This document shows positions 3,218 through 34,070 of a stretch of DNA of 34,070 nucleotides, in pieces (the first letter of the stretch is position 1; each line of letters starts with the position of its first letter). Made by a program: the position numbers and the translations under genes. The notes under the pieces were generated by a model. That model did not search any database and was not told the DNA's origin. It worked only from the letters and a program-made list of their open reading frames with translations. The stretch spans positions 1 to 34,070 of the forward strand of contig JAJZUI010000009.1 in NCBI GenBank assembly GCA_021847175.1. Reading direction: 5' to 3'. The DNA is from Pseudomonadota bacterium (GTDB taxonomy: Bacteria > Pseudomonadota > Alphaproteobacteria > Acetobacterales > Acetobacteraceae).

Positions 3218-3544
3218 ATGAGCGAACACACGAAGAACGTCACCGACGACAGCTTCACCGCCGACGTGCTCAAGGCGCCCGGCCCGGTGCTGGTGGACTT
3301 CTGGGCGGAATGGTGCGGCCCGTGCCGCGCGATCGCGCCGGCGATCGACGAGATCTCCGCGGAATACGCCGGCAAGCTGACGGTCGCGAAGGTGAACATC
3401 GACGAGAACCCGATGACGCCGACGCAGTACAATGTGCGCGGCATCCCGACTCTGATGCTGTTCAAGGACGGCAAGCCGGTGGCGACCCAGGTCGGCGCCG
3501 CGCCGAAGAGCGCGCTCCGGCAGTGGGTGGCGAACGCCCTGTGA
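3218..3544 (+). CDS. trxA: Thioredoxin
   Basis: This 108-residue cytoplasmic thioredoxin carries the active site EWCGPC (Cys33 and Cys36), which reduces protein disulfides and is recharged by thioredoxin reductase. The cis-proline loop [12 protein letters not shown] is also present. The frame is open further upstream, but ATG 3218 gives the standard length, and AGGA at 3207-3210 lies seven bases before it. trxA is a normal member of the addA-trxA-folC neighbourhood. The 53-bp gap to the next gene contains a short five-base-pair hairpin with no T-run. Confidence 0.96.
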
Positions 3545-17341: not shown

Positions 17342-17668
17342 ATGGTCAAGCCCGAACTCGGCAACAAGCGCGTCTGCGTCGCCTGCGGCGCGAAGTTCTA
17401 CGACCTCGGCCGCGTGCCGGCGGTTTGCCCGAAATGCGACACCGAGCAGCCGGCCGAGCAGCCGCGCGTGCGCCGCATCGCGCCCGTGGCACCCGTGGAG
17501 GTGGCTCGCGGCAAGCCCCAGCCAGCGCCCGGTCTCGAGGACGTGGACGTCGAGGTTGAGGCCGAGGAGGAGGAGGAGGGCGTGCTCGAGGACACCTCCG
17601 ACCTCGAGGGCGACGACGCCATCGCCGATGTCGAGGTCGAGCAGGAGCCGGGCGAGGAAGAGCGCTAG
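17342..17668 (+). CDS. TIGR02300 (FYDLN-acid) family protein
   Basis: This 108-residue protein starts [20 protein letters not shown]. The two CxxC pairs (CVAC and CPKC) flank the family signature [14 protein letters not shown], forming a small zinc ribbon. The remaining two thirds is a Pro/Val linker and a very acidic tail, mostly Glu and Asp, ending GEEER. The family is typical of alphaproteobacteria and its function is unknown to me. It is commonly found divergent from aroA, as here. The stop TAG overlaps the stop of the convergent methyltransferase gene through the palindrome CTAG (17665-17668). Confidence 0.92.
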
Positions 17669-17675
17669 GGCGCTC
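17660..17675. terminator. Hairpin at the shared CTAG stop of two convergent genes
   Basis: GAGCGC (17660-17665) pairs with GCGCTC (17670-17675) around the loop TAGG, which holds the plus-strand stop. The CTAG at 17665-17668 reads as TAG on both strands and ends both genes. There is no T-run on either side. Confidence 0.45.
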
Positions 17676-18498
17676 CCTCCACCACGGGGCTCCACGCGGC
17701 GAGCCGCCCGGTCATGACCCCGACCGCCTCGGGGTTGCTGTCGGCGAGCAGGAAGCGCCGGCCGTTGCGCGCCGCGGCCTCGCCGAAGGAGCCGGAGCCG
17801 GCGAAGAAATCGGCGAGCAGGTCGCCCTCGCGGCTGTGCACGCGCACGATGCGCTCCAGGATGCCGAGCGGCTTCTGCGTCGGGTAGCCGGTCTTTTCCC
17901 GTCCCGTCGGGCTCACGATCGTGTGCCACCAGACATCCGTGGGCGTCTTGCCCCGCGCGGCCTTTTCCGGCGGCACCAGGCCCGGCGCCATGTAGGGGAT
18001 GCGGTCCATCGCCTCGGCGTCGAAGACGTAGTTCGCGGGGTCTCGGGCATACCAGAAGATGGTGTCGTGCTTGGTCGGCCAGCGCCGCTTGTGCCGCGCG
18101 CCATAGTCGTAGGCCCAGACGATCTCGTTCATGAAGCTGGCGCGGCCGAACACGGTGTCGAGCAGCAGCTTGCAGTAATGCGCCTCGCGCGGGTCGATGT
18201 GGAAGAACAGCGAGCCGTCGGCGGCCAGCACCCGGCGGATTTCCACCAGGCGCGGTTCGAGGAAGCCGAGATAGTCGTCGAACGCGTCGGCGAAGCGCAT
18301 GGAGCCGAGCAGCTTCGTCGCGTAGCGGTGCCCGCCGAAGCCGGTGCGGTCGCCGGCCTCGTCGCGCACGGTCGCGAGCCGCGTGCGCGCCTGGGCGATG
18401 CCGGTGTTGAAGGGCGGGTCGATGTAGACGAGCGCCACCGAGGCGTCCGGCAGCCCGCGCAGCAGGTCGAGGTTGTCGCCGAGGACGATGCGGTTCAC
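17665..18498 (-). CDS. Orphan site-specific DNA methyltransferase, beta-class (N6-adenine or N4-cytosine)
   Basis: This 277-residue amino-methyltransferase has catalytic motif IV DPPFNTG at residues 27-33. The S-adenosylmethionine motif [14 protein letters not shown], is near residues 230-242. The order IV, then target-recognition region, then I defines the beta class, which includes CcrM-like enzymes. [15 protein letters not shown] is motif X. No restriction nuclease gene is next to it. The recognition site is not readable. The start is a GTG at 18498: an in-frame TAG lies only one codon before it, and no ATG follows for about 65 codons. Its purine-rich AGGGGG abuts the GTG, which is unusually close for a ribosome site. 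Confidence 0.88.
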
Positions 18499-31779: not shown

Positions 31780-32322
31780 ATGCCCATCGACGAATCCCGC
31801 CCCTTCCAGCCCGTCAACATCGCCGTCCTCACGGTATCGGACACGCGCAGCCTCGCCGAGGACCGCTCCGGCGACACGCTGGTGGCGCGCCTCGGGGCGG
31901 CGGGGCATCACCTCGCCGACCGCAAGCTGCTGCGCGACGAGGTGGACGACATCGCGGCCCAGCTTGCCGCCTGGATCGACGATCCCAGGGTGGACGTGGT
32001 GATCAGCACCGGCGGCACCGGGATCACCGGCCGCGACGTGACGCCGGAGGCCTTCGAGCGCGTGCTGGAGAAGCGCATCGAGGGGTTCGGCGAGCTGTTC
32101 CGCATGCTGAGCTACCAGACCATCGGCACCTCGACGATGCAGTCCCGCGCCCTCGGCGGTGTGGCGCGCGGCACCTATCTCTTCGCGCTGCCGGGCAGCA
32201 CCGGCGCGGTCAGGGACGCTTGGGACGGGATCCTGTCCACCCAGCTCGACATCCGGCACCGGCCCTGCAACCTCGTCGAGCTCATGCCCCGGCTGCAGGA
32301 GCATCTGCGCAAGGCGAGCTGA
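31780..32322 (+). CDS. moaB: Molybdenum cofactor biosynthesis protein B (MoaB/MogA family)
   Basis: This 180-residue protein belongs to the MoaB/MogA molybdopterin-binding fold. MogA-type enzymes adenylylate molybdopterin before molybdenum insertion. The motifs [32 protein letters not shown] and [16 protein letters not shown] are clear. The length fits MoaB. The 3' end overlaps the convergent DJ-1 gene by 41 bp. The start is ATG 31780, 30 bases after the transglycosylase stop. Confidence 0.94.
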
Positions 32323-32989: not shown

Positions 32990-33039
32990 TGATTTCTCCT
33001 CAGGTCGGCGCCGTCCAGCGCCGGGGTAACGACAGCTTT

Positions 33040-33054
33040 GTTCTCAAGATGTTC
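33040..33054 (+). promoter_or_regulatory. LexA (SOS) box, alphaproteobacterial type
   Basis: GTTC-TCAAGAT-GTTC is an exact match to GTTC-N7-GTTC, the known LexA site of alphaproteobacteria. It directly abuts a possible -35, TTGACC (33055-33060), of the radical SAM gene. Confidence 0.8.
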
Positions 33055-33083
33055 TTGACCGATCTTTCCGGGTTCGGCAGGGT
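33055..33083 (+). promoter_or_regulatory. Possible promoter of the radical SAM gene
   Basis: TTGACC (33055-33060) is followed after 17 bases by CAGGGT (33078-33083), a poor -10. It is supported mainly by its position between the two LexA boxes. Confidence 0.35.
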
Positions 33084-33090
33084 AGCGCGA

Positions 33091-33105
33091 GAACGAAGCA
33101 GGAAC
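33091..33105 (-). promoter_or_regulatory. Second LexA (SOS) box
   Basis: GAAC-GAAGCAG-GAAC is the reverse-complement form of GTTC-N7-GTTC and matches exactly. It ends seven bases before the ATG of the radical SAM gene and would lie over the transcription start or leader. Confidence 0.75.
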
Positions 33106-33112
33106 ACGTGCC

Positions 33113-34070
33113 ATGACGCCCGATCGTGCCACACTTCCGGCCGGAACCAGCCTCCCCGCCTCGCTGCGGCGGGGCCGCGGCGCGGTGGACAACCCCGCCA
33201 ACCGCTTCGACCGGCAGAGCGTTGCGGCCTTCGACGACGGCTGGGAGACGCTGGCGGAATTCGCGGACCTGCCGCCGCTCGCCACCACGCTGACCAAGGA
33301 CGCGACGCGTTCGGCGATCAGCTGGAACCAGTCGCCGGATATCGGGTTCGATCGCGCGGTGAACCCTTATCGCGGCTGCGAGCACGGCTGCATCTACTGC
33401 TACGCGCGCCCGACGCACGCCTATCTCGGCTACTCGCCCGGCCTCGATTTCGAGACCAAGCTGCTGTTCAAGCCGGAGATCGCCGCGCTGCTGGAGCGTG
33501 ATCTGAAGAAGCCCGGCTACGTGGCGCGCACGCTGGCGCTCGGTTCCAACACCGATCCCTACCAGCCGGTGGAGCGCACGCTCGGCCTGACGCGCGCGGT
33601 GCTGGAGGTGATGGACCGCTACAGCCACCCTGTCAGCATCGTCACCAAGTCCGCGGGCGTGCTGCGCGACCTCGATATCCTCAAGCGGCTCGCCGCGCGC
33701 AACCTCGTGCGCGTGCATCTCTCCGTGACGACGCTGGACGCGGGCCTCGCCCGCGTGATGGAGCCGCGCGCGGCCACCCCCTCGCGCCGCCTCGCCGCCG
33801 TCGCGGCGCTGGCGCGCGAGGGCGTGCCGGTCTCGGTGCTCGCCGCGCCGATGATCCCTGGCCTCAACGACGCGGAGCTGGAGAGCATCCTGGAGGCCGC
33901 GGCGAAGGCCGGCGCGCGCGAGGCCGGCTACATCCTGCTGCGCCTGCCGCATGAGCTGAAGGAGATGTTCGAGGCCTGGCTCGCCGAGCACCGGCCGGAC
34001 CGCGCGGCGAAGGTGCTGTCGCTGATCCGCCAGACCCGTGCCGGCGGGCTCAACGATTCGCGCTTCGGCC
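33113..34070 (+). CDS. PA0069-family radical SAM protein (SplB-like), 3' end outside window
   Basis: The gene starts at ATG 33113 with AGGA about ten bases upstream, and the frame runs open to the end of the window (319 codons). The radical-SAM cluster motif is CEHGCIYC (Cys89, Cys93, Cys96), preceded by NPYRGC, a hallmark of the PA0069/SplB-like group (COG1533, annotated as DNA repair photolyase-related). ALGSNTDPYQPVERTLGLTR and VTKSAGVLRDLDIL are further family stretches. The actual substrate is unknown. Two LexA boxes upstream suggest induction by DNA damage. Confidence 0.9.
   Translation, partial: MTPDRATLPAGTSLPASLRRGRGAVDNPANRFDRQSVAAFDDGWETLAEFADLPPLATTLTKDATRSAISWNQSPDIGFDRAVNPYRGCEHGCIYCYARPTHAYLGYSPGLDFETKLLFKPEIAALLERDLKKPGYVARTLALGSNTDPYQPVERTLGLTRAVLEVMDRYSHPVSIVTKSAGVLRDLDILKRLAARNLVRVHLSVTTLDAGLARVMEPRAATPSRRLAAVAALAREGVPVSVLAAPMIPGLNDAELESILEAAAKAGAREAGYILLRLPHELKEMFEAWLAEHRPDRAAKVLSLIRQTRAGGLNDSRFG

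Follow-up and report, generated by a model that had tools for sequence, protein, structure and literature searches.

The window, as we call the whole stretch of 34,070 nucleotides analysed here, contains two LexA boxes in front of a radical SAM gene of the PA0069 family. Judged from sequence comparison, it is highly probable that they form a dual operator through which LexA represses this gene until the DNA is damaged. The elements concerned, and the genes on either side, are arranged as follows.

33040-33054, plus strand: LexA box 1, GTTCTCAAGATGTTC, an exact GTTC-N7-GTTC directly upstream of the -35 element
33055..33060, plus strand: predicted -35 element, TTGACC, adjoining box 1 and proposed from its conservation
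33078..33083, plus strand: predicted -10 element, CAGGGT, a weak match to TATAAT at a spacing of 17 bp from the -35 element
33091-33105, minus strand: LexA box 2, GAACGAAGCAGGAAC, an exact GAAC-N7-GAAC, inverted relative to box 1
33113..34070, plus strand: PA0069-family radical SAM gene (NF033668, PF04055), cut by the contig end
32282..32989, minus strand: DJ-1/PfpI gene (PF01965), a divergent neighbour that is not counted in the system

The coordinates and letters of both boxes, reported in the original prediction as exact matches to the alphaproteobacterial LexA site, proved correct. The boxes lie in the 123-bp gap (32990-33112) that is common to the divergent DJ-1/PfpI and radical SAM genes, with the start of box 2 located 51 bp after that of box 1. 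Counted on both strands, GTTC-N7-GTTC occurs three times in the window, compared with a mean of 0.43 in 100 dinucleotide shuffles, none of which reached three matches. Genome-wide, the motif is matched 60 times and its reversed control 32 times, an enrichment so weak that a single match constitutes weak evidence. The original prediction had argued from expected pattern frequencies that the pair is unlikely to have arisen by chance. Those statistics alone are insufficient to settle the point, since single boxes are not rare, but the claim is upheld by the orthologue comparisons and control patterns described below. The spacing, the orientation and the identity of the downstream gene are conserved across the family, and on these grounds we reject coincidence, which we regard as scarcely credible. 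The third match in the window, at 3224-3238 on the minus strand, is unrelated to the pair. It sits at the very beginning of a thioredoxin-like gene that follows an AddA-like helicase gene (both named from their translations) and, judging by the genome-wide rates, may well be a chance match.

Whether the boxes persist in the promoters of orthologues was the question on which the original prediction turned, and the Acetobacteraceae give a clear answer. The radical SAM gene is present in 58 of 80 sampled genomes of the family. Upstream regions were analysed for 58 loci, one of them the present locus, and 57 of these have at least one GTTC-N7-GTTC within 400 bp of the gene. In the same 58 stretches, control patterns with a spacer of six bases, a spacer of eight bases, reversed half-sites and inverted half-sites were found at 0, 4, 4 and 0 loci, respectively, and the true N7 pattern was found at a single locus in an equal length of coding sequence. 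A plus-strand box followed by a minus-strand box occurs at 37 loci, at 36 of which the two starts are 49-52 bp apart. Where a perfect pair is missing, a partner box stands in the right place with one mismatch at seven loci and with two mismatches at two more; random placement yields a partner with one mismatch or fewer in <1% of trials. About a dozen members of the family have no recognisable partner box, which implies that the second box is dispensable for control.

Both boxes are retained in each of the three congeners, at positions -73 and -22 and with the same orientation and spacing. Box 1 is identical in two of them, and in the third it differs by two bases, both confined to the spacer. 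The sequence between the boxes and the upstream flank have diverged in these species while the boxes themselves persist. At three loci (L074, L083 and L084), a third GTTC-N7-GTTC lies 56 bp upstream of box 1, forming a possible triple operator.

The paired arrangement is closely tied to this one gene. The composite pattern GTTCN7GTTC-N34-40-GAACN7GAAC has a single copy in the genome under study. It was found in 33 of 150 genomes drawn from the order, all of which belong to the same family, Acetobacteraceae, with one copy in each, and its reversed control in one of the 150. Every one of the 33 copies stands directly upstream of a PA0069-family radical SAM gene. We conclude that in these genomes the paired operator is specific to the gene rather than a general feature of SOS genes. 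As the order-level scan covers one family, the case for family restriction rests instead on the class-wide and named loci. The alphaproteobacterial box precedes the radical SAM gene at 26 of 29 class-wide loci analysed and at 71 of 80 named loci. Outside the Acetobacteraceae, Alphaproteobacteria usually have a single box, of the form GTTCTTGNNNTGTTC, as in Rhizobium, Phyllobacterium, Brevundimonas, Phenylobacterium, Azospirillum, Stella and other genera. Taken together, these comparisons make the paired, fixed-distance operator look like a special feature of the Acetobacteraceae.

Beyond the class, the motif changes with the lineage. Two named Pseudomonas loci have CTGTATATTTAAACAG and CTGTATTTATATACAG in place of the alphaproteobacterial box, which was found at none of 26 loci from elsewhere in the phylum. 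CTGT-N8-ACAG is present at 18 of these 26 loci, and two control patterns at none. The radical SAM gene thus appears to be placed under whichever LexA motif its lineage uses. That LexA control should be kept across lineages with wholly different LexA motifs makes it very likely that this is a real SOS gene.

The original prediction also placed a possible promoter between the boxes, and comparison of 49 distinct dual operators bears this out. Immediately after box 1, TTGA is present in all 49 and TTGAC in 48, and it is this near-invariance that argues for a sigma-70-like promoter at TTGACC/CAGGGT, oriented towards the radical SAM gene by prediction. In a scan for the -10 element restricted to spacings of 16-18 bp from the -35 element, the commonest best form in these operators was CAnnnT. 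A strict sigma-70 scan of this locus reported no promoter, because the -10 element is too weak. Box 2 begins 4-9 bp past the -10 candidate throughout the 49 operators, so that it would cover the predicted transcription start.

In 32 of the 49 operators, the start codon follows box 2 by 3-8 bp, commonly by 6 bp, so that the 3' end of the box probably doubles as the ribosome-binding region. In the dual operators, box 2 is rich in G over its 3' half, and its conservation may be partly translational, given the overlap with the probable Shine-Dalgarno region. Taken further, these features could mean that box 1 is the sole LexA operator and that box 2 is mainly a purine-rich Shine-Dalgarno sequence that has come to resemble a box through shared constraint, as the presence of one box only in most Alphaproteobacteria outside the family might also suggest. 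All eight letters are nevertheless retained at the fixed spacing even where the start codon is 13-51 bp away, and the pair pattern occurs nowhere else in the genomes scanned. Moreover, read on its own strand, box 2 shares the inner preferences of box 1, a T at the fifth and a pyrimidine at the seventh spacer position, which favours LexA over ribosome binding as the force behind its conservation. We therefore consider a mainly translational box 2 unlikely and retain the reading in which both boxes are LexA operators.

The gap is common to two divergent genes, and the boxes might in principle serve mainly to control the DJ-1/PfpI gene. The boxes persist, however, although a DJ-1 homologue accompanies the radical SAM gene at just three further loci out of about 140 and at none of the congeners' loci, and the -35 and -10 elements between them face the radical SAM gene. 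With the neighbour not conserved, we rejected the DJ-1 gene as the target, an assignment to which we attach very slight probability. The moaB gene (31780-32322) is a much better kept neighbour than the DJ-1 gene, being found near the radical SAM gene both here and at roughly 40 of about 140 alphaproteobacterial loci. Elsewhere in the window, at 17665-18498 on the minus strand, there is an N6/N4 DNA methylase gene (PF01555), possibly encoding a solitary methyltransferase.

The regulon to which the radical SAM gene would belong was read from the stretches around boxes in this genome, with open reading frames picked by codon usage. The same box lies upstream of recA; before uvrA, where it lies 4 bp ahead of the start; before an ImuA-like gene, identified by a weak model match; and before a ribonucleotide reductase gene. 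It also overlaps the start of parE. Boxes that overlap or abut a start codon are found at parE (L207), uvrA (L195) and genes for an aminotransferase-like and a luciferase-like protein (L234 and L235). In seven of eight relatives, the box is present upstream of lexA itself. A search of this draft assembly (290 contigs, 94.5% complete) found no lexA gene, and the boxes could accordingly be relics in a strain that has lost LexA and expresses the radical SAM gene constitutively. The three congeners all have lexA, at 78-80% identity to a LexA of the family, which makes an assembly gap likelier than loss of the gene; a gap in a draft of this kind is the simplest explanation. Both boxes and the recA box are, besides, intact. 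Loss of LexA is thus very unlikely.

On the dual-operator reading, one LexA dimer, bound to box 1, would block the -35 element in undamaged cells while another, on box 2, would cover the transcription start, switching the gene off. Following DNA damage, RecA filaments would trigger self-cleavage of LexA and both sites would be emptied. The radical SAM enzyme would then be made alongside the RecA, UvrA, ImuA-type and ParE proteins, and we infer that it repairs or processes damaged DNA. The function of the PA0069 radical SAM family thereby becomes a directly testable DNA-damage question, and with its dual operator the locus is well suited to studying what makes one SOS gene require stricter repression than the others.

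The gene product scores 442 bits against NF033668, the PA0069 family model, compared with a cut-off of 360, even though the contig end truncates it; the C-terminal portion is encoded on another contig of the same genome (C250). With NF038135, the model for the related Rv2578c-family radical SAM subfamily, it scores 205 bits, which is below that model's cut-off of 430. The Radical_SAM domain PF04055 is also matched. The CxxxCxxC motif of the [4Fe-4S] cluster reads CEHGCIYC, and its three cysteines are invariant in 37 orthologues.

The original prediction had assigned the protein to a PA0069/SplB-like group with kinship to spore photoproduct lyase. The family assignment stands, and the kinship is supported at the level of predicted fold. 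When a full-length orthologue model (pLDDT 84.6) was compared with solved folds, spore photoproduct lyase (PDB 4fhc and mutants) ranked first, with a VIA Z of 19.3 and an rmsd of 3.8 over 272 residues at 15% identity. The next family had a Z of 15.3, and other radical SAM enzymes were at about 15. The lyase shares with the present family the CxxxCxxC motif with a tyrosine before the last cysteine. Kinship is not borne out by sequence, however. Searches of the PDB with the protein by phmmer and with the 37-orthologue profile returned chance or generic radical-SAM matches and no spore photoproduct lyase chain, and no SPL model is among the NCBIfam matches of the gene product. The hydrogen donor of the lyase is a further cysteine, C140/C141, which also figures in the mutant names of its structures. 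Outside the cluster motif, no cysteine is conserved in even half of the 37 orthologues, so that the donor cysteine is without a conserved counterpart. The host, moreover, is not a spore former. Overall, a fold kinship to spore photoproduct lyase is supported by the model but a common reaction is not, and since a conserved counterpart of the catalytic cysteine and sequence-level kinship are both missing, the name should not be taken to denote a 'photolyase'.

A more far-reaching interpretation may be offered tentatively. The family may have evolved a unique dual operator, inverted, with starts 51 bp apart and placed at -35 and +1, for this gene only, one that holds an enzyme of SPL-like fold but different chemistry fully off until damage occurs. 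The target of this enzyme may be a type of damage whose repair has so far been attributed to no radical SAM protein. We consider this possible, though doubtful as a whole.

That splB-like genes are regulated by LexA is not new. A comparative genomics study of 2012 predicted that splB, a putative photolyase gene, is controlled by LexA in alpha- and beta-Proteobacteria, and did not observe such regulation in Gammaproteobacteria (PMC3323433). A paper of 2021 describes SplB (COG1533) as SOS regulated in several species, and extends the predicted control to Bacteroidetes (PMC8565304). The present locus resembles the predicted splB cases (PMC3323433) in its type of gene, an SplB-like radical SAM gene (COG1533), in having a LexA site at the promoter and in belonging to the same class; it differs in that, within one family, the promoter is enclosed by two inverted boxes at a fixed spacing, and in that two named Pseudomonas and other non-alphaproteobacterial loci were here found to carry CTGT-N8-ACAG. 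What is added here is the conservation of the boxes, the geometry of the promoter, the confinement of the dual operator to one gene and, apparently, to one family, and the lineage-matched motif in non-alphaproteobacterial relatives, together with a caution against naming the enzyme a photoproduct lyase. Our searches of the open-access literature turned up neither an account of the dual operator nor any link between PA0069 or Rv2578c and LexA; both of these genes may be entries in published LexA regulon lists. Operators with several LexA boxes are familiar from the lexA and recN genes of Escherichia coli. As would be the case here, these bind more than one LexA dimer per promoter for tighter repression. 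The Acetobacteraceae operator is distinguished from them by boxes of the direct-repeat type, set as an inverted pair whose starts are separated by 51 bp and flanking the predicted -35 element and the predicted +1 position.
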